This document shows positions 14,332 to 23,592 of a stretch of DNA of 64,000 nt, piece by piece. The notes below the pieces were generated by a model. That model searched no databases. It saw only the letters and a program-made list of their open reading frames with translations, and was not told the DNA's origin. The stretch's first letter is position 1; each line of letters starts with the position of its first letter. The translations under genes were made by a program, and so were the position numbers. The DNA comes from Sinorhizobium alkalisoli. GTDB lineage: Bacteria; Pseudomonadota; Alphaproteobacteria; Rhizobiales; Rhizobiaceae. The stretch lies in the NCBI RefSeq assembly GCF_008932245.1, contig NZ_CP034909.1, forward strand, positions 2,356,001 through 2,420,000, written 5' to 3'.

Positions 14332-16011
14332 TTAAAACAGCCCTTCGATGTAGCCCGCTTCGTTGAGGCGGATCCTCTCGGACGAGGGCACTTTCGGCAG
14401 GCCCGGCATTGTCATGATCTCGCCGGTGATGACGACGATGAAGCCGGCGCCTGCCGCGAGCCGCACCTCGCGGATCGGCACCGCATGCCCGCTCGGTGCG
14501 CCGCGCAGGTTGGGGTCGGTGGAAAAGGAATATTGCGTTTTGGCCATGCAGATCGGCAGATAGCCATAGCCCTGGTCTTCCCAGGTCCGGAGCTGCTCGC
14601 GCACCAGCTTGTCGGCTATGACCTCGCTCGCATGGTAGATATCCTTGGCGATGGTCTCGATCTTCTGGAAGAGCGGCATTTCATCTGGATAGAGCGGCGA
14701 GAACTGCGAATGGCCGGCATTGGCGAGTTCGACGACCTTCAAGGCCAGATCCTCGATGCCAGCTGAGCCTTCGGCCCAGTGCTTGCAGAGCACCGCCTCG
14801 GACCCGAGCGTCCTCACATAGTCCTTGATCGCCTGGATCTCTGCTTCCGTGTCGGTCGTGAAATGGTTGATCGCGACCAGTGCCGGAACGCCGAATTTCT
14901 TGACGTTCTGCACGTGCCGCCCGAGATTGGCGCACCCCTTCTTCAAGGCCTCGACATTCTCCTTGCCGAGATCTTCCCTCTTCACCCCGCCATTCATCTT
15001 GATCGCCCTGACGGTTGCGACGATCACTGCGGCGTCCGGCTTGAGTCCGGCCTTGCGGCACTTGATGTCGAAGAATTTTTCCGCTCCGAGATCGGCCCCG
15101 AAGCCCGCTTCCGTCACGACGTAATCGGCGAGCTTCAGCGCGGTTGTCGTCGCCACCACCGAGTTGCAGCCATGGGCGATATTGGCAAAAGGGCCGCCAT
15201 GGACGAAAGCCGGATTGTTCTCGAGCGTCTGCACCAGGTTCGGCTGCATGGCGTCCTTGAGCAGCACGGCCATGGCGCCGTCCGCCTTGATCTCGCGGGC
15301 GAAAACCGGGCTCTTGTCGCGCCGGTAGCCGATGATGATGTTGCCGAGGCGTCTTTCGAGGTCCCGGATGTCCGTCGCCAGACACAGGATCGCCATGACT
15401 TCGGAGGCGACGGTGATGTCGAAACCCGTCTCGCGTGGATAGCCATTGGCAACACCGCCAAGCGCGCCGACGATCTGGCGCAGCGCCCGGTCGTTCATGT
15501 CCATCACCCGCCGCCAGGCAACGCGGCGGGTATCGATCGCCTGTTCGTTGCCCCAATAGATGTGATTGTCGATCAGCGCAGCGAGCAGGTTGTGCGCCGA
15601 GGTGATGGCGTGAAAATCGCCCGTGAAATGTAGATTGATGTCCTCCATAGGCACCACCTGGGCATAGCCGCCGCCGGCGGCACCGCCCTTGATGCCGAAG
15701 CAGGGGCCGAGCGAAGCTTCGCGGATGCAGACGATTGCCTTCTTGCCAATACGGCTCAGACCGTCGCCAAGCCCGACGGTGGTCGTCGTCTTGCCCTCAC
15801 CCGCCGGGGTCGGGTTGATCGCCGTCACAAGGATTAGCCGCCCGTTCTTCCTTTCTTTCTGCGCGGCGATGAACTCCGCGCTCACCTTCGCCTTGTCGTG
15901 CCCATAGGGAAGCAGGTGCTCCGGCGGAATGCCGAGCTTCGCACCGATTTCCATGATCGGCTTCTTCGTCGCGGCGCGCGCGATCTCGATGTCGGATTTG
16001 ACGTGCCCCAT
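14332..16011 (-). CDS. fhs: Formate-tetrahydrofolate ligase
   Basis: A 559-residue formyltetrahydrofolate synthetase, which uses ATP to join formate and tetrahydrofolate into 10-formyl-THF (one-carbon metabolism, cytoplasm). The phosphate-binding loop [13 protein letters not shown] lies at about 64-76; [35 protein letters not shown] is the usual following block, and [16 protein letters not shown] is conserved. Start 16011 ([12 protein letters not shown]) has GAGGGGAG before it and gives the usual length; 12 codons upstream are open but weakly supported. The stop codon touches an intergenic repeat. Confidence 0.97.
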
Positions 16012-16106
16012 GGCTCCCCTCAATTTGTGTTCGCACGGCTCGCGCATTCAACCTCCTCCGCCGAATGCGCTTGCGTTTGCTTGTTCTTACGCTGACATGA
16101 AGTCCG

Positions 16107-17324
16107 TCAGCGGGCAAGAATGTCGCGCATTTCCACGAGATTGGACCGAACACGGAGAATGTAGAAACCCATGGTTGCGAGGTGCGTCGGCATGATCCAG
16201 CCGTCCTCGCGGCCATTCGAGATGATCAGCGGTTGGATACGCAGCGCGGCGCGAAGCTGCTTCATCGTTTCCGTATAGATCGGCGTCAGCCCCCGCTGCG
16301 TGACGACATTCTCGAAATCGGCGCCCGCCGCCGACAGGATGCCGTAATAGCCGTAGAGTTGGCCGAATGAGAACCAGAAGCGGTCGTCCGCCCGCGTGTC
16401 GAACCAGCCGCCATTGTGCAACTCGGAGCGCTCGCGAATGATCGCCGACGTATTGCCGAGGTCGCTCGCGATGCGATCCAGGAATTCGACCAGATTGTCC
16501 GACCGCCCATCGAAGACCGCATCGCACTTGCCGAGAGATACATTGAACTTCCTGAGGTCGCGCATGGCGGCGCGATAGAAGCTGGGAGTCGGTGTTTTCG
16601 GGCCGAACGGGCTGATGCCGAAATACCAGGTCTCCTCGTCGAACTGGATATTGCCGCGCGCGCTCTGCAGGTCGTTGTTGATTCCGGAAGTGCCGCGGAC
16701 GCGGCCGAGCGAGTCGACCAGTTCCACGGCCGTGCGCCGCACCGCCTGATTGATGCCGCGCTGGAACGATGCCTTGTTGTCGAGCCAGGGCGTATCGTCC
16801 CAGTCGAGCCCGAAAAAGCCGATCTTGTAGGCAAGCATCGAGGATATCCAGGCGTTCTGGTTGACATTGAAGTCGATGAGATCGGCTGCAACATCGACGA
16901 TTGCGGAGTGCTGGCAGGCGGTCCCGGCGGGCAGCTGCGCGACGGCCAGCGATTCAGGCGTCGAGGTCCCTGCATCGAGCGCTGCCCGGTTGGCGGGGGT
17001 CACATCGGCCGATTGCCCGGTCGTCGTCGCCCCCGGACCACTGACCGGCGAGCCGGCCGGTGTCTTGCGTTCGGCGAGCTTGTAGCGGTCGACGTAATCC
17101 GGATCGAAATTGGTCCAGGCCTGCGTCTGCCAGATGAAATAGCCGTAGAAGAGGACAAAGGCGAGCAGGATGAGCGCGATTGGCCCTTTGATGATCCAAC
17201 TTCTTCCGCGGTACCAGTTGCCAAGCGCGACGAAGGGCCAGGCGAGCCACGCCACTACCAACCCGATGCCCCGGCCGATCGCCGTGAAGACACGCTGAAA
17301 GAACGCAACGATCGGATCGAACAT
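16107..17324 (-). CDS. DUF2333 family membrane-anchored protein (fifth gene of AAA+ operon)
   Basis: A 405-residue protein with one strong transmembrane helix at about 49-66 (ALILLAFVLFYGYFIW), preceded by amphipathic segments; the bulk should lie in the periplasm. It matches what I know as DUF2333 (QHSAIVDVAADLIDFNVNQNAWISSMLAYKIGFFGLDWDDTPWLDNKASFQRGINQAVRRTA). No catalytic motif is visible. The ATG at 17324 follows GAGGAATAG, which overlaps the end of the gene before it (3-bp gap), so the two are coupled. It is the last gene of the five-gene operon 22888-16107 and supplies its only clear membrane anchor. Confidence 0.8.
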   Translation of the reverse strand: MFDPIVAFFQRVFTAIGRGIGLVVAWLAWPFVALGNWYRGRSWIIKGPIALILLAFVLFYGYFIWQTQAWTNFDPDYVDRYKLAERKTPAGSPVSGPGATTTGQSADVTPANRAALDAGTSTPESLAVAQLPAGTACQHSAIVDVAADLIDFNVNQNAWISSMLAYKIGFFGLDWDDTPWLDNKASFQRGINQAVRRTAVELVDSLGRVRGTSGINNDLQSARGNIQFDEETWYFGISPFGPKTPTPSFYRAAMRDLRKFNVSLGKCDAVFDGRSDNLVEFLDRIASDLGNTSAIIRERSELHNGGWFDTRADDRFWFSFGQLYGYYGILSAAGADFENVVTQRGLTPIYTETMKQLRAALRIQPLIISNGREDGWIMPTHLATMGFYILRVRSNLVEMRDILAR

Positions 17325-17327
17325 CTT

Positions 17328-18617
17328 CTATTCCTCTTTGAGACCGTAGAGCTTGTGGCGGAAGGCGGCCTTGTCCTTGAGATATGTGCCCGTCAACGTC
17401 GCAACAACATATTCCCGAAACTTTTCGCTGTAGCCTTCATAAGCGCTGTAGAAGCCCTGCTTGTCGAAAACGAAGCGCGAGACGAAATCGCGCGGGACGA
17501 GTTGTGAAACGAGGCGGTTGACGAGCCACTGGTCCGGGTGATCGGGCGCGGCCCTTACCAGCAGGAAGCGATGTGCCGGGGCGATTTCCTGCATTTTGAC
17601 CGTGCCGGTCGCGGCGATCGCCCGCGACATTTCCTGCAGGAAAGGATAGATGCCGTCCCGCGCTACCAGCGCGGCATTGCGGTGAATCCACGTCTGCAGC
17701 CAGATTCGATCGGCATTGACCAGGTCGGCGTCCGGATCGGCCTCGTTGATCAGCCCGCGAACGGCCATGTCCGCCCGGTGCTGGAACAGGCCGGAGTGCT
17801 CCACCCAGGAGGCCTGCGGCAATTGCAGCCGGTTCGTCGCAGCCAGGAAATCGTAGATGCGCGCATGATCGGAGATCGCGATATAACTCACCTGCCAGGG
17901 CCGCGAGCGACGAAAGCCCGGCGCCGACGGATCGCAGATCACCGTCGTCGTCTTCGCGTCCAGGAAGACATAGACGCCGCCGAAGTGGTTCGCCCAGAAG
18001 GCCTGGTGGCGGAAGATGAGTTGGTCGGGCACCAGTGCATTCTGCCGGATGTCGCCGGTCGTCTGCGCCAGTTCCACCATCCGCCCGAGCATCGCGTCGT
18101 CCGCCCAGGCGTTCGGCACCTTCTTCAAACGGTCGATGAGCTCGCGAAGTTCGGCCGCCTTGCCGAGCATGCCTTCGGCCGAGAGCACCCGGAACCGCAC
18201 CTCGTTGATCGACAAGAGATCGTCGATGTCCTTGACGACGGAGACCGTATCCTCGATCTCTCCATAGAGAGCGTCTTTGATCGTCACCGCGTGGATTGCA
18301 CGGCTGTTTGCATTGAAGAATTCGTGCATCAACGCCGCAGTGTTGGAAAAGCTCGTGTGCACCACCGGCAGCTCCCCCTGCGCCGGCGTCAGGATGATGA
18401 AGCGCCGGTTCACCCGATTGGGATCGAGATAATCCTGGTCCCCCAATTCATAGGCAATCTCCGGCGAGAAGCCGGTCATGTCGATGCTGAAGCGCGGAAG
18501 CGCCGTCGGCCTGAGGCCGAAGCCTTCGAGCGCCTTGTTGTAGCGCGCAATAAGGTGCGGCTCGGAAATATCGAGCAGCCGCCCGTAAATGAGCTCGGCT
18601 TCCAGGAGGCGCTTCAT
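17328..18617 (-). CDS. Conserved protein of unknown function (fourth gene of AAA+ operon)
   Basis: A 429-residue soluble protein of no known activity; it resembles a rhizobial family listed as DUF6638, which I assign tentatively. It has no transmembrane helix or signal peptide. The sequence is acidic and Arg-rich, with recognisable blocks ELIYGRLLDISEPHLIARYNKAL, PEIAYELGDQDYLDPNRVNRRFIIL and WVEHSGLFQHRADMAVRGLI. It lies between the AAA+ ATPase (52 bp) and the DUF2333 gene (3 bp) on the same strand. Co-transcription suggests a partner or substrate adaptor of the ATPase; that is inference. Confidence 0.75.
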   Translation of the reverse strand: MKRLLEAELIYGRLLDISEPHLIARYNKALEGFGLRPTALPRFSIDMTGFSPEIAYELGDQDYLDPNRVNRRFIILTPAQGELPVVHTSFSNTAALMHEFFNANSRAIHAVTIKDALYGEIEDTVSVVKDIDDLLSINEVRFRVLSAEGMLGKAAELRELIDRLKKVPNAWADDAMLGRMVELAQTTGDIRQNALVPDQLIFRHQAFWANHFGGVYVFLDAKTTTVICDPSAPGFRRSRPWQVSYIAISDHARIYDFLAATNRLQLPQASWVEHSGLFQHRADMAVRGLINEADPDADLVNADRIWLQTWIHRNAALVARDGIYPFLQEMSRAIAATGTVKMQEIAPAHRFLLVRAAPDHPDQWLVNRLVSQLVPRDFVSRFVFDKQGFYSAYEGYSEKFREYVVATLTGTYLKDKAAFRHKLYGLKEE

Positions 18618-18669
18618 TGTGGAACGCTCCGCAAGACGCGGACGTCCCGTTCGCTGACCAATGCCGCCA

Positions 18670-20586
18670 TCAACTCTGCCACCTGCCGGCGCGCTTCATT
18701 GCCTCGATCTCGTGGATCGCCTTCTCGCGCTGGCGTTCGCGGCGAATGATGTCGGCGATCGCTGCGTCGTCGGTTTTGTCAGTGTATCGGAATTCGCTGT
18801 CGGCATAGCGGTTGATTTCCTGCAGCACCATGTCGATGGTGATCGGGCCGCGGAGATCCTCGATCATTGCCCTCTTCTCCTCATAGGATTTGTGCATGAA
18901 GGAGGCCGCATCCTCGAACCAGTCGTCCGGCAGTTCGACATCCATCGCCCGCATCTTGATCGCGTCGGTGATGTTCCTGATGGCGCGGCCGGTGAAGCGG
19001 GGTTCGGCCTCCTTTATCCGATGCAGATAGGCACCGACATCGGCAAGCGTGGCGACCTTGCCCCTTTCCTTCTCAAAACGTTCCCAGACGGCGACGAGCC
19101 CATCCTCCTGCGGCCGCGAATGCGCCGCATAAGATTGCGTGACGGCCCGCTTGATCTCCTGGCCGGCATAGAGCTCGTGCTCTCCCAACGGGATCTGATG
19201 GTTGTTGCCGACGAGCAGCGCAAAAATGTCGATGTAGTCCGCCTCCGTCTGCGGCCCGTCGACCAGCCAGCGCGCACCGGCCCGCTGACGCAGCGCATCG
19301 TCGACATTCTCCGGATGGTTCGAAAACATGCCGAAGGTGCAATTGCCGCGAATGACGGTCGAGGCGCCGGCGAAGCTCTCCATTAGAACCGCGGTCACCT
19401 CATGCTGACCGGCCGAGGCGCGGTCGTCGGAACGCTTCGCCGTCACCTGGTCGACATCGTCGATCGTGCCGAAACCGATCGCGCGCGGGTTCATGACGTT
19501 ATTGACGAACTCCTTGCAGTTCTGGCCCGATTTGCCCTGGTATGAGGAAATCTGGTCGACACCGAAGTTCTCGTAATGGAGGGCATAGCCGGCGACGCCG
19601 CAATAGTCGTGCAGCATGCCGGCAAGCATCTGGATCAGGATCGTCTTGCCGGTGCCCGGCATACCGTCGCCGATGAAGGTGAAAAGGAAGCCGCCGAGTT
19701 CGACGAACGGGTTCATCTGCCGGTCGAAGTCATAGGCCACCAGCATTTTGGCAAGCTTCAGCGCCTGATATTTGGCGATGTGGTTGCCGATGATCTCCTC
19801 CGGCTTCTTGAAGGTCATCACAAGCGGCTTGCGCTTCTGCCCGGGCGCGACGTCGAAGCCGTTGAGCGTGAAGTCGTCCTGGTCGAGCCGGATGTGCACA
19901 GTCTCGAAGTTCTGCAATCCCGTGAAGCGCGCCTTGCGGGCGAGCAATCCGTCGATCGCCACGCGTGAAAAGGCGCGGGTTCGGGCCGTCAGGGCAAGCT
20001 CGTCGGGCGCGCCCGCGATGCTGCGGTCGAGCGCCGCCACCATGCTTTTCAAGGCGTCCTGGGGGGTGTCGATAAGAAAGTCCGGCTCGGCGGCATCGTC
20101 GACCGGCTCCCCCTCCCCCTGCAAGGTCGCGCCGAGATAGGCGGCGAGCGTGAAGGCGGCGACATAGGCCGACGCCGCAAGCAGCGCCTTGAACCGCTCC
20201 GCATCCTCCCCGGCGAGCGGTGCAGTCGAATTGCGCGCCTGCAACTGTTCGAGACTCGTCTGCCGCGCGAATACGTCGGCAACCGCCAGCGCCACCTGGA
20301 TGCCGCGGCGGACGCGGTAGAGCACGGCGTGCTGCGCCGGAGAGAGTAGCGGATCTGCGCCGCGGATCGATTGAACGGTGCGGGCAAGCTCGACCTCCCG
20401 CGTGCGGCGCTGGCCGCCCGTCGACACGGTCGAGACGAAGCGGCGCCCGGTACCGGCAAGCGGCGCGCCATTTGGACCATCGACCCGCTCGAGGATGATG
20501 AGCTTGGTGACGAGGCTCTGGGCGATCGCCTGGTGCTTGGCAATGTCGTCCTCGTGGAGCGTCGTCAGGCCCGCGTTCAAAGTCAT
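18670..20586 (-). CDS. AAA+ ATPase (third gene of unknown operon)
   Basis: A 638-residue protein with a roughly 290-residue helical N-terminal region, then one AAA+ module. Walker A is GDGMPGTGKTIL at about 306-317. Walker B is GFGTIDDVDQV at about 369-379, ending in two acidic residues. Sensor 1 lies in TFGMFSNHPENVD, directly followed by RQRAGAR, which can supply the arginine finger. The C-terminal part is charged. No protease or helicase domain is fused. It should remodel a protein or complex at the cost of ATP. Neighbours start 3 bp before and 52 bp after, so this is the motor of the five-gene operon. The target is unknown. Confidence 0.88.
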   Translation of the reverse strand: MTLNAGLTTLHEDDIAKHQAIAQSLVTKLIILERVDGPNGAPLAGTGRRFVSTVSTGGQRRTREVELARTVQSIRGADPLLSPAQHAVLYRVRRGIQVALAVADVFARQTSLEQLQARNSTAPLAGEDAERFKALLAASAYVAAFTLAAYLGATLQGEGEPVDDAAEPDFLIDTPQDALKSMVAALDRSIAGAPDELALTARTRAFSRVAIDGLLARKARFTGLQNFETVHIRLDQDDFTLNGFDVAPGQKRKPLVMTFKKPEEIIGNHIAKYQALKLAKMLVAYDFDRQMNPFVELGGFLFTFIGDGMPGTGKTILIQMLAGMLHDYCGVAGYALHYENFGVDQISSYQGKSGQNCKEFVNNVMNPRAIGFGTIDDVDQVTAKRSDDRASAGQHEVTAVLMESFAGASTVIRGNCTFGMFSNHPENVDDALRQRAGARWLVDGPQTEADYIDIFALLVGNNHQIPLGEHELYAGQEIKRAVTQSYAAHSRPQEDGLVAVWERFEKERGKVATLADVGAYLHRIKEAEPRFTGRAIRNITDAIKMRAMDVELPDDWFEDAASFMHKSYEEKRAMIEDLRGPITIDMVLQEINRYADSEFRYTDKTDDAAIADIIRRERQREKAIHEIEAMKRAGRWQS

Positions 20587-20589
20587 CGC

Positions 20590-21738
20590 TCAAACCTCGC
20601 TCACCACCTGGTTACCGGAAATCACATGTACCTTGTAATCACCGAAAATCCCGGCCGCCTCGCCGGAAGCATAAAGCGCCTGATAGGCGTCATGCGGCAC
20701 CAGCGCATGCTTCTCATAGGCGCTGACCCCCATGCGGGCGGCCTCGAGATTGTCGGTGTCGATATGGAATTCTTCCTGCGCCGGCGTCGAGGACCAGAAG
20801 CCGTGTTTGGCCGGACGCTCCGCCTTGGAATAGACCTCCTGCACCGTCCAGGTCAAAAGCCAGGCATTCTCGGTCCTGCGCACCTTCGAGAGGATTTCGT
20901 TGATCTTCGCGCTGTTCTCGGTGATCCCCGCCGAATAGAACGGCCCAAGCACGATGCGCCGAAGCTGCTTCGGATGCAGTTCCGGAAAATCCCTGTCGAG
21001 CGTCGTGGCGATCGTTGCCGGCGTCAGCGAATAGGCGCTGTGCTTCGAAGCGAAATCGTCGAAGCGGCTGGCAAGCTCCGGATTGAGCAGTCCGCCGACA
21101 GGCAGCGGGATCTCGACGTCGGGATTGAGCTTGCCGTCCCTGGTCACCAGCATTTCGACGATATTTTCCGATGAATCCTCGATCGTCGCCATATAGACCA
21201 TCGGCAGGGTCTGGCTGCCGTCGAATGCGCCCCAGGACACGACGTAATAGGGCCGCATCGTCTTCGGATTGACAGCAACCCGGATCGTCTCCGGCAGGAT
21301 GAAGGGCGAGAAGATATTCCCCTGGCCGATCTGCTCGAGATAAAGCCGCTCGGCCATCCGCGATTGCAGCGCATCGGGAAAGGCCTTGTGCCGCAGGATG
21401 AAATCCACCATTTCCTCGCGCAGCGCATCGGCAGAGGGAATACTCGCCAGCCGCCTGTCGGCGCTCTGGCGGTCATTCTCGAATTCCAGCACGTTCTGGA
21501 ACGTCGGATAGCCGCTCTCCGCACGCGCGATGCGGAACTGCTCGACAAAGCCGATGCGGTTCTCCCAGCAGGTGATCGATGCCTTCAGCCGCGCCAGATA
21601 GGGAACAATGACCTCGCCCACCACCGTATTGCGGTAGAGCGGCGAGTTTCGGTCTCCGAGAAACAGCTCCAGCCCCGCCACCGCAGCCCGGATCGAGGTG
21701 AAGTATTGCCGGACGGACGAGGATATCGCAACGCTCAT
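20590..21738 (-). CDS. Protein of unknown function (second gene of AAA+ operon)
   Basis: A 382-residue soluble protein that I do not recognise. Start 21738 (MSVAISSSVRQYFTSI) has GGGAGGCG upstream. The N-terminal 130 residues are helical (VAGLELFLGDRNSPLYRNTVVGEVIVPYLARLKASI). The middle is more beta-like (IRVAVNPKTMRPYYVVSWGAFDGSQTLPMVYMATIEDS). The C-terminal region again is helical. No catalytic motif or membrane segment is visible. It lies 3 bp before the AAA+ gene and 61 bp after the coiled-coil gene. The tight spacing suggests a complex with the ATPase. Confidence 0.72.
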   Translation of the reverse strand: MSVAISSSVRQYFTSIRAAVAGLELFLGDRNSPLYRNTVVGEVIVPYLARLKASITCWENRIGFVEQFRIARAESGYPTFQNVLEFENDRQSADRRLASIPSADALREEMVDFILRHKAFPDALQSRMAERLYLEQIGQGNIFSPFILPETIRVAVNPKTMRPYYVVSWGAFDGSQTLPMVYMATIEDSSENIVEMLVTRDGKLNPDVEIPLPVGGLLNPELASRFDDFASKHSAYSLTPATIATTLDRDFPELHPKQLRRIVLGPFYSAGITENSAKINEILSKVRRTENAWLLTWTVQEVYSKAERPAKHGFWSSTPAQEEFHIDTDNLEAARMGVSAYEKHALVPHDAYQALYASGEAAGIFGDYKVHVISGNQVVSEV

Positions 21739-21799
21739 CGAACGCCTCCCGCCATCTGCCAAAGGGCGGCCGGAAATCGGATCATCGACGCCTTGCCGA

Positions 21800-22888
21800 T
21801 CACTGCTTCACGTAATCTGCGGCATTGTGCTTTTCCATTACGTCCTGGAAGCGGCGGGCAAAGGCGTCGTCGGCGAGTTTCTTGCGCCGCTGGATATCCT
21901 GTGTCGCCTGCATGTTCTTCTCATGCATTTCGAGCAGGTCGCCGATGTGGCGCTGGGCCGCGGCGCCGATCCCGGCCATGGTTTCCTCGGCGGCGGTGTC
22001 GACCTGGCTGCCGAGCGTGTTGATCTTGTGGGCGACATCCTGCTGCGCCGCGGTCTTCAAGGAATCCTCGAGCGACTTGTAGAGGACGATACGCTGTTCG
22101 GTGTCAATCGTCAGCTTGTTGATTAGCGTGTTCTGCGCCGCGATCTGGTTGTTGAGCGAGTCGACGAAGGTCTGGAACATCGCCGTGTAGCGCTCGAGCG
22201 TCTGGCTCTCGGCAAGCAGTTCCTGCTCCTTGGCCTGCTTCTCGTTGTATTCGGTCGCGAGCCTGGAGCGCTCCGCCTCAAGGTCGGTGCGGGTCCTCTG
22301 GTCGGTCGAGGCGGCGATCCGGTTCTCGATGTCGAGCAGCAGCGGATTGAGTTCCTCGATCCTCTTCTGCGTTTCCTCAAGAGTCGTCATCGTACCTTTG
22401 CGGCGCTCGATTACCTGGATGAGGCTCTGCTCCGAGGTTTTGTAGCGCTGGTCGAGAATCGACTTCTGATCCTTGAGGATGCCGACGATCATATCGGACT
22501 TGGCAAGCAGCTCCTGCAGATTGCCGGCGAGCGACATGTTGCGCACGCGATCGGTACGCATGCGCTGCATCGACTGCTTGGAAAAGATGCCGATGAACTT
22601 CTCGTAGCCGGTATAGCTCTTCATGCTCTCGAATTCGGCGCCAAAGACATTGGTCGCGTCTTCGAGGCCGATGATCAGATCGGCGATATTGGCCTCCATC
22701 ACCTTCTGCTGCTTGATGACGTCCTGGATACGGGCGTTCTCGATGTCGAAATCGACGTCACCGAGCCTGGTGTCGGCCTTGGCGAACTGCTCGAGAACGA
22801 CGCCGGACTGCTCAAGCTTGCCGCGCATCTCGTCGACGACGTTCTTCGTCTTCTCGATCTCGGTGTCAAAATTCTGAAGAGTCGCCAT
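21800..22888 (-). CDS. Coiled-coil protein (first gene of AAA+ operon)
   Basis: A 362-residue protein that is almost entirely helical, with long heptad-like stretches: MATLQNFDTEIEKTKNVVDEM at the start and LEETQKRIEELNPLLLDIENR near residues 170-190. Gln, Glu and Lys are abundant, with no membrane helix. It recalls TelA/KlaA-like or PspA-like coiled-coil proteins in general character, but I cannot place it in a family. It leads the operon behind a predicted promoter at 22961-22989. A scaffold or filament role beside the AAA+ ATPase is the simplest guess. Confidence 0.75.
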   Translation of the reverse strand: MATLQNFDTEIEKTKNVVDEMRGKLEQSGVVLEQFAKADTRLGDVDFDIENARIQDVIKQQKVMEANIADLIIGLEDATNVFGAEFESMKSYTGYEKFIGIFSKQSMQRMRTDRVRNMSLAGNLQELLAKSDMIVGILKDQKSILDQRYKTSEQSLIQVIERRKGTMTTLEETQKRIEELNPLLLDIENRIAASTDQRTRTDLEAERSRLATEYNEKQAKEQELLAESQTLERYTAMFQTFVDSLNNQIAAQNTLINKLTIDTEQRIVLYKSLEDSLKTAAQQDVAHKINTLGSQVDTAAEETMAGIGAAAQRHIGDLLEMHEKNMQATQDIQRRKKLADDAFARRFQDVMEKHNAADYVKQ

Positions 22889-22960
22889 TTTCCGTCCCCT
22901 TGATCCGCACCGACAGGCGCACGTCAGCGGCCCAGATTACTCAGCCATCGATTGCACTTA

Positions 22961-22989
22961 TATAAAGGACGTCCGACAGGCGAGGACAA
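22961..22989 (-). promoter_or_regulatory. Predicted promoter of the AAA+ operon
   Basis: On the minus strand, TTGTCC (22984-22989), a 17-bp spacer and TTTATA (22961-22966; TATATA overlaps). It lies about 72 bp before the coiled-coil gene, between it and tdk. Confidence 0.5.
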
Positions 22990-23007
22990 GACGCGGTTGG
23001 GCTTTTT

Positions 23008-23592
23008 TCACCCCTGCATCCGGTCTTCCCAATGGCGGCGGCAATAGGAGACGTATTTCTCGTTGCCGCCGACGTCGACTTGTGCGCCCTCGCGCACGAC
23101 ATTGCCCTTGCCGTCGAGGCGCACGACCATTGTCGCCTTGCGGCCGCAATGGCAGATCGTGCGTACCTCGCGCAGTTCGTCGGCGATCGCGAGCAGCGCC
23201 ATGGAGCCGGGAAAGAGCTTGCCCTTAAAATCCGTCCTCAAGCCATAGGCCATCACGGGGATGCCGAGACGGTCGGCCACCCTCGCGAGCTGCCAGACCT
23301 GGTTCTCGCCGAGAAACTGCGCCTCATCGACGAATATGCAGGCGATCTCGCCGGAACCGTCGCCGTTCATGCGCTCGACAAGGGCGTAGAGATCCTCAGC
23401 TCGGCGGAACGGGATCGCCTCCGCGTCGAGCCCGATGCGCGAGGCGATCCGGCCGACGCCGGCGCGATCGTCGAAAGCGGCGATCAGCATCACGACGCGC
23501 AGGCCGCGCTCCTGGTAATTGTAGGACGCCTGCAGCAGCAGCGTGCTCTTGCCGGCATTCATCGTCGCGTAGCTGAAATAGAGTTTTGCCAT
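23008..23592 (-). CDS. tdk: Thymidine kinase (type II)
   Basis: A 194-residue thymidine kinase that phosphorylates thymidine with ATP in nucleotide salvage. The P-loop ATMNAGKST is at 9-17, the DEAQF motif (IFVDEAQFL) carries the catalytic acidic residue, and the structural zinc site is formed by CHCG and YCRRHW in the lasso region. It stands upstream of the AAA+ operon on the same strand, with a 119-bp gap containing that operon's promoter, so it is probably a separate unit. Confidence 0.96.
   Translation of the reverse strand: MAKLYFSYATMNAGKSTLLLQASYNYQERGLRVVMLIAAFDDRAGVGRIASRIGLDAEAIPFRRAEDLYALVERMNGDGSGEIACIFVDEAQFLGENQVWQLARVADRLGIPVMAYGLRTDFKGKLFPGSMALLAIADELREVRTICHCGRKATMVVRLDGKGNVVREGAQVDVGGNEKYVSYCRRHWEDRMQG

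Follow-up and report, generated by a model that had tools for sequence, protein, structure and literature searches.

What a set of five adjacent genes of Sinorhizobium alkalisoli does, and whether the genes act as one system, is the question raised by positions 16107-22888 of a 64,000-nucleotide stretch of contig NZ_CP034909.1 (positions 2,356,001 to 2,420,000; the whole stretch is called the window here). A first-pass annotation had read the set as an envelope-linked remodelling machine without a described counterpart. The genes, named A, B, C, D and E from the upstream end, are a real operon and a conserved system. Comparison with other genomes showed that A-B-C-D is a conserved four-gene core, which stands and moves with one membrane partner, either a DUF2333 protein (E) or a DUF1523 protein (F). 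A to D plus E or F lie on one strand in 109 of 112 loci and the other three are cut by contig ends; most of the 112 loci belong to one family and are not independent. The earlier idea of an undescribed machine is strengthened, and an envelope role is what we infer for it.

The features of the operon in the window are as follows.

21800..22888, minus strand: gene A, soluble coiled-coil protein of 362 residues; weak matches only, mostly to coiled-coil models
21899..22078, minus strand: residues 271-330 of A; conserved across the 18 A proteins aligned from full systems and missing from three homologues of loci lacking the ATPase
20590..21738, minus strand: gene B, soluble protein of 382 residues (from the ATG at 21738), no Pfam family, fast evolving
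18670..20586, minus strand: gene C, AAA+ ATPase of 638 residues; AAA core at about residues 307-438, N-terminal region of about 300 residues with no Pfam match
19642..19671, minus strand: Walker A of C, residues 306-315, GDGMPGTGKT
19528..19548, minus strand: pore-loop-1-like motif of C, residues 347-353, SSYQGKS
19456..19461, minus strand: Walker B acidic pair of C, Asp-Asp, residues 376-377
18618..18669, minus strand: C-D junction, 52 bp, empty in the window
17328..18617, minus strand: gene D, DUF6638 (PF20343), soluble protein of 429 residues
16107..17324, minus strand: gene E, DUF2333 (PF10095), 405 residues, N-terminal membrane segment and a domain of about 340 residues
17130..17186, minus strand: membrane segment of E, residues 47-65, by hydropathy

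Layout and conservation of the operon

The five minus-strand genes and their gaps of 61, 3, 52 and 3 bp were reproduced from the open reading frames (ORFs). Pfam assigned C to AAA (PF00004; 2.3e-10, 41.4 bits against a cut-off of 21.2), D to DUF6638 (5.7e-76, 256.6 bits against 27) and E to DUF2333 (2.1e-16, 60.2 bits against 22), and gave nothing above its cut-off for A and B. Only generic AAA or coiled-coil matches were obtained with NCBIfam, and the four PHROG matches of C are all over its AAA part. A had been annotated as a long coiled-coil protein; its weak matches are mostly of the coiled-coil type, and by hydropathy it has no membrane-like segment. B, described as an unknown soluble protein, has by hydropathy no membrane-like segment and fits that description. 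D had been described in the same way; it is soluble by hydropathy and is a member of a named family, DUF6638. The single membrane helix expected in E was seen as one clear segment (residues 47-65), with a borderline one at 16-34; among E homologues, two membrane windows were found by hydropathy in 63 of 95, one in 29 and none in 3. The domain of about 340 residues is likely to be periplasmic. Cys 137 and Cys 267 of E are present in 93 of 93 sequences with letters there (96 aligned), and a periplasmic disulfide between them is possible.

The single promoter proposed for the set could not be located: a search of 15900-23200 on the minus strand yielded no sigma-70-like promoter. A tdk-like gene of the same strand (23008-23592, named by reading) stops 119 bp upstream of A, so read-through into A is possible.

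Around the ATPase in other genomes, A-B-C-D were found in the same order on one strand in 20 of 20 loci, with E next in 16. From these 20, L034, L039 and L043 were excluded from all five protein alignments, L035 from that of B, which is split into two ORFs there, and L049 from those of C and D. In a larger set of named loci, the best 80 of at least 505 relatives (Sinorhizobium, Ensifer, Rhizobium, Pararhizobium, Shinella, Hoeflea, Mesorhizobium, Phyllobacterium and others), A-B-C-D-E lie on one strand in 78, and the remaining two are cut by contig ends. The proteins and loci closest to the window genes are those of Sinorhizobium/Ensifer.

Genome-wide searches gave a similar picture. Within the order, 199 genomes were searched for the ATPase, DUF6638, A and DUF2333, which were found in 31, 32, 33 and 38 genomes respectively. 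DUF6638 is present in all 31 ATPase genomes, plus one genome with a match on a 3-kb contig. A is present in 30 of the 31, the contig of the 31st beginning inside C, and in three further genomes, one of them with a marginal match; DUF2333 is present in 25 of the 31. Neither DUF6638 nor DUF2333 was found in any of 14 named control genomes. In a class-wide sample the ATPase occurred in 2 of 142 genomes, one being that of the window. DUF6638 occurred in 20 of 299 genomes of a phylum-wide sample: nine in the window's own family (the window's genome included), one elsewhere in the order, nine in one other family of the class and one in another class. In the family of the window's genome, which we infer to be Rhizobiaceae in the GTDB sense (131 genomes, 109 genera; ATPase cut-off E <= 1e-40), the ATPase was found in 65 of the 109 sampled genera. 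The refutation named for the proposed machine, that the genes do not co-occur elsewhere, thus fails, as the genes are co-inherited; in searches of the open full-text literature, no component was found in a characterised complex.

Homologues of choX, tdk or fhs, at least one of them within the stretch, flank the operon in 79 of the 80 named loci. In five loci from other lineages (L036, L042, L044, L047 and L051) the core order is kept and none of these flanks was found. These comparisons gave no pointer to symbiosis, since the A-D core also extends to a second family of the class (f24) and to one genome from a different class.

The exchangeable membrane partner and the A-E pair

E is present in 95 of the 112 loci that contain D and F in 15; two are truncated. 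All 15 untruncated loci lacking DUF2333 have F, an ORF of 215-311 residues, after D. The four F proteins that were scanned matched PF07509 (DUF1523; 4.3e-55 to 6.5e-68), and the other eleven were joined to them by phmmer similarity. Two membrane segments were found by hydropathy in 12 of the 15. On a tree of the ATPase, built by a quick method, a single change suffices for the E/F state. The F genomes comprise five from the window's order, nine from a single other family of its class and one, G376, from a different class. The A-D proteins of G376 are 66-78% identical to those of locus L175, and therefore A-D and the membrane protein move as one unit. The membrane protein is an exchangeable part of the system. 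DUF2333 is thus not an obligatory fifth part: DUF1523 replaces it in another lineage, it is present without the others in many genomes, and the A-E pair occurs without B, C and D in three loci.

Other genes with a membrane connection were seen at some loci. A small membrane ORF of about 88-120 residues lies between D and F in eight loci, and by reading in L177 too. An SPFH/band-7-like gene lies between A and B in L096:7642-8580, L115:7902-8789 and L120:7907-8794; the L096 insert was scanned (Band_7, 3.2e-29) and the other two were assigned by similarity. At L050:5102-6115 (G182), PspA/IM30 and YiaAB genes lie near the F end with one opposite-strand gene between. Stand-alone DUF2333 proteins are members of PF10095 like E; they differ in that no A-D match was found in the ten loci scanned with all five profiles (L152-L161). 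By reading, ftsE/ftsX-like neighbours are present in L152:1942-6556, L158:2179-11019 and L161:2892-7541, and lysA-like genes are near stand-alone DUF2333 in L155 and L158. The ftsE/ftsX-like neighbours are a possible hint at an envelope role of DUF2333.

Occurrence within the family is nested. The ATPase was found in 76 of the 131 genomes, A in 80 and DUF2333 in 100, each list lying inside the next: all 76 ATPase genomes have A and E, all 80 A genomes have E, and E is present without A in 20. Four family genomes have A without the ATPase. For one of them, G707, the assembly is 68% complete and the contig stops within B. In G164, G327 and G569, one shared chromosomal place holds tdk, A and E but lacks B, C and D, and no match to the ATPase or DUF6638 was found elsewhere in the genome. 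G558 and G304, from the phylum-wide sample, are likewise without DUF6638. The three loci with the A-E pair are:

L150:6982-9547, L151:6422-8719 and L201:5916-8079: A and DUF2333 only, at the tdk-A-E place

The A genes in these loci appear to be kept, since they are intact ORFs; two of them are 56% identical to each other. Of the residues that are invariant among 18 full-system A proteins, the three retain 25, 23 and 18 of 47 outside residues 271-330 and 0, 1 and 0 of 14 inside (Fisher p 0.0003, 0.005 and 0.006, in tests that treat residues as independent). Residues 271-330 are conserved in both the DUF2333 and the DUF1523 versions. As this segment is conserved in both versions and lost together with B-C-D, it would be the contact of A with the ATPase module, the rest of A serving E.

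The ATPase and a possible mechanism

Judged by its motifs, C belongs to the AAA proteins; its Walker B is unusual, and the other AAA features are in place. Profiles of the five proteins were compared with solved structures (A, B, D and E at E <= 1, C at 0.001), and only C matched at E <= 0.001, over the AAA core; A had weak matches, mostly to coiled-coil constructs, the best at 0.037. The C profile aligns with proteasomal Rpt2 over residues 307-432, and i-AAA and VCP-like chains also match, within 287-433. Walker A and Walker B had both been annotated as intact. For Walker A (GxxxxGKT) this holds: the motif is GDGxPGTGKT, and its six commonest variants, which cover 109 of 113 sequences, all fit. 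In Walker B the second acidic residue is Asp and not Glu; Asp-Asp is present in 113 of 113 sequences, aligned to the DE of Rpt2, and the catalytic Glu was not found. Hydrolysis usually becomes slower when the catalytic Glu is replaced by Asp. For the aromatic pore loop 1, YQG occupies the YLG position of Rpt2, and YQGKS is present in 113 of 113 sequences, as are GMFSN and DALRQR, which we take to hold the sensor-1 Asn and an arginine-finger-like motif. C thus resembles the FtsH/VCP/Rpt-type AAA ATPases in its PF00004 match and in the Rpt2, i-AAA and VCP chains matched by its profile. It differs from them in having no protease or second AAA domain (Pfam), in its own N-terminal region and in the D-D of Walker B.

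We tentatively favour, at a probability of about 0.42, a reading in which the operon would encode one membrane-tethered AAA+ machine that remodels a coiled-coil assembly, ESCRT-III/Vps4-like in principle. E or F would sit in the inner membrane as a platform or sensor, and A would assemble on it as a coiled-coil scaffold. C, with B and D as adaptors or regulators, would engage the C-terminal segment of A and use ATP to pull A apart or remodel the assembly; the Asp-Asp Walker B might make this slow. Vps4 acts on ESCRT-III by such a principle, which would here serve the envelope through proteins of unproven relationship. An envelope link is consistent with the data, as a membrane partner is present in both versions; so are a coiled coil as the client of the motor and B and D as adaptors. 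The membrane side of this proposal gains a little, and only a little, from the SPFH/band-7 and PspA/YiaAB contexts.

In A, a C-terminal element of the coiled coil is dependent on the ATPase being present, which would also be expected of the Vps4-binding motif of ESCRT-III. C differs from Vps4 in its Asp-Asp Walker B and perhaps in its N-terminal part, as no MIT match was found in the window's C (Pfam, E up to 1). We know of no counterpart of B, D or DUF2333/DUF1523 in ESCRT-III/Vps4 or PspA/Snf7 systems. With ESCRT-III/Vps4, and with the bacterial PspA/Snf7 proteins that occur with a classical AAA+ ATPase (mSystems 2024, PMC11237479, available text), the operon shares an AAA ATPase gene beside a helical coiled-coil gene and a membrane link; no such operon is named in that text, and the string 'Rhizobi' occurs 0 times in its main part.

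Some identities were tried and rejected. A was compared with TelA (PF05816); TelA/KlaA proteins are similar to A in length and helical make-up. The profile comparison gave 1% with a small set of 7 TelA proteins, no TelA Pfam match was found in the window's A, and TelA is not among the Pfam matches listed (25 of 49 families) for 18 A members. A relationship between B and D was also rejected, with 1% in profile comparison. Nor does the operon replace PspA: no PspA match was found in the window's genome, and in the order PspA matched in 11 of 32 genomes with DUF6638 versus 28 of 167 without (compared by eye), which is no avoidance.

Several points weigh against a machine that remodels A. The contact between A and C, a polymer of A and the activity of C are predictions from sequence. 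Homology of A to ESCRT-III/PspA is unproven: A against PspA (PF04012) gave a hhalign probability of 22% and E 0.001, with 0.5% for a TelA-PspA control (L196 was excluded from the PspA alignment for a stop codon in the stretch given), and PspA is not among the Pfam matches listed, 25 of 49 families, for the 18 A members. The absence of the ATPase from 55 of the 131 family genomes means that the system is dispensable, and E, present without A in 20, has a function independent of A. By comparison of coordinates, E is not strictly linked to the other genes: among the 76 ATPase genomes it is found on a different contig in G602, G648, G675, G685 and G726, where contig breaks are possible, and in G631 and G680 it shares the contig at a distance of more than 10 kb. 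Part of the segment loss in A is explained by a 22-residue deletion, which contributes to it in the first two of the three proteins. The Fisher tests, besides assuming independent residues, overstate the evidence, because the three loci share one chromosomal place and may reflect one or two losses. Finally, the toxin-like inserts that nearly half of the loci carry are not explained by an envelope role.

The strongest alternative, in our estimate still an unlikely one, is that C with B and D would be an unfoldase or assembly chaperone, which inserts, matures or extracts the DUF2333/DUF1523 protein or a client, A being a structural tether and not a substrate. All 110 loci untruncated at that end have a membrane partner of one family or the other, the motifs of C suit a threading ATPase, with Rpt2, an i-AAA protease and VCP as its nearest solved relatives in profile comparison, and the two conserved Cys are in the likely periplasmic part of E. 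However, the 20 of 131 genomes with E and without A or the ATPase indicate that C is not needed there for E maturation, and the loss of a conserved segment in the absence of B-C-D was seen in A, the protein compared in this way.

The C-D junction bears on a further alternative. Gaps of more than 350 bp were found at this junction in 51 of 112 loci, versus 7 of 111 at A-B, 6 of 111 at B-C and 2 of 95 at D-E; at D-F, the site of the small membrane ORF, they were found in 9 of 15. The 51 C-D inserts comprise DUF559 (22), ParE with XRE (11), ParE with ribbon-helix-helix (7), Phd with PIN (4), single cases of HicB, an AbiJ N-terminal domain, DUF3825 and a below-cut-off DUF4145/HEPN-like protein, and three left unassigned; the names of the 48 classed inserts rest on one or two Pfam-scanned representatives per cluster. 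The ATPase tree requires at least 37 switches between insert types and 25 between presence and absence, and therefore capture or loss of inserts is frequent. S. meliloti 4H41 has DUF559 at the junction, and the window has nothing. The junction is an insertion hot spot for toxin-antitoxin, nuclease-like and abortive-infection-like genes (loci among L032-L184). At one locus, L032:7803-8630 (G245), a Fic/DOC-family gene was seen between B and C.

Ranking below the chaperone, and doubtful, is the explanation that the operon would be a defence or stress system, in which C with B and D senses membrane insult through A and E/F and the C-D genes are exchangeable toxic effectors. The excess of large gaps at this junction, the 48 of 51 inserts in toxin-antitoxin, nuclease-like or abortive-infection-like classes and the many changes of insert type speak for it. 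An effector is nevertheless not needed, as 61 of 112 loci and the window have no insert. PADLOC-DB 2023 gave no specific match of a core gene to a known anti-phage system, only generic AAA or coiled-coil matches (C to TRIP13 at 9.2e-5 and IetA at 0.0021, A to JetC at 0.12). The named loci look chromosomal, 79 of 80 holding choX, tdk or fhs homologues, and toxin-antitoxin pairs are also maintained as selfish genes where a site tolerates them. A tolerant site stabilised by selfish toxin-antitoxin pairs is favoured over exchangeable effectors because more than half of the loci have no insert.

That the genes are neighbours without a common function, held together by operon inertia, is very improbable: the conserved choX, tdk and fhs flanks of the named loci speak for it, but the core order is kept in the five other-lineage loci where none of these flanks was found, the swap affects the last gene only, and occurrence is nested.

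Context in the literature and significance

Little has been written on these families. In open full text DUF2333 was found in one paper, as an uncharacterised gene in a Pseudomonas type VI secretion system effector locus (PMC5256989, available text), DUF6638 was not mentioned, and DUF1523 appeared in four papers, in one of them as a bare entry in a proteome table (PMC10783040, available text). Searches of open full text with family names, S. meliloti locus tags and combined terms found no description of the system, apart from one possible trace, a ChvI-binding fragment. Counting through tdk, A and B from choX, which we take to be SMc02737, makes C SMc02733. The available text of PMC3687685 places a ChvI-binding fragment inside S. 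meliloti SMc02733, and the fragment may lie in gene C; the locus-tag match was made by counting and is not certain. Counting from shmR (SMc02726; available text of PMC8343143 and PMC2848241) does not close exactly on C as SMc02733. The DUF2333/DUF1523 swap, the nested occurrence with loss of the A segment and the C-D insertion hot spot are new here.

In its boldest form, the remodelling machine would represent an undescribed class, in which a slow Asp-Asp AAA+ ATPase takes apart, at the inner membrane, a coiled-coil polymer that has no relation to ESCRT-III; two dedicated adaptors, interchangeable envelope sensors (DUF2333/DUF1523) and a junction that repeatedly captures toxin-antitoxin or nuclease-like genes would complete it. 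As a whole, this combination is improbable.

The five-gene ATP-driven system was thus found in 65 of the 109 genera sampled from the family, and it also occurs elsewhere in the Alphaproteobacteria and in a single genome from a different class. The comparative results sharpen the questions to be asked of it: what the partner of A residues 271-330 is, whether DUF1523 does the job of DUF2333, what Asp-Asp does to the ATPase cycle and why toxin-like genes gather at one junction. Should the system prove to remodel coiled coils, it would give bacteria, next to PspA/ESCRT-III, a further means of reshaping or repairing the envelope.

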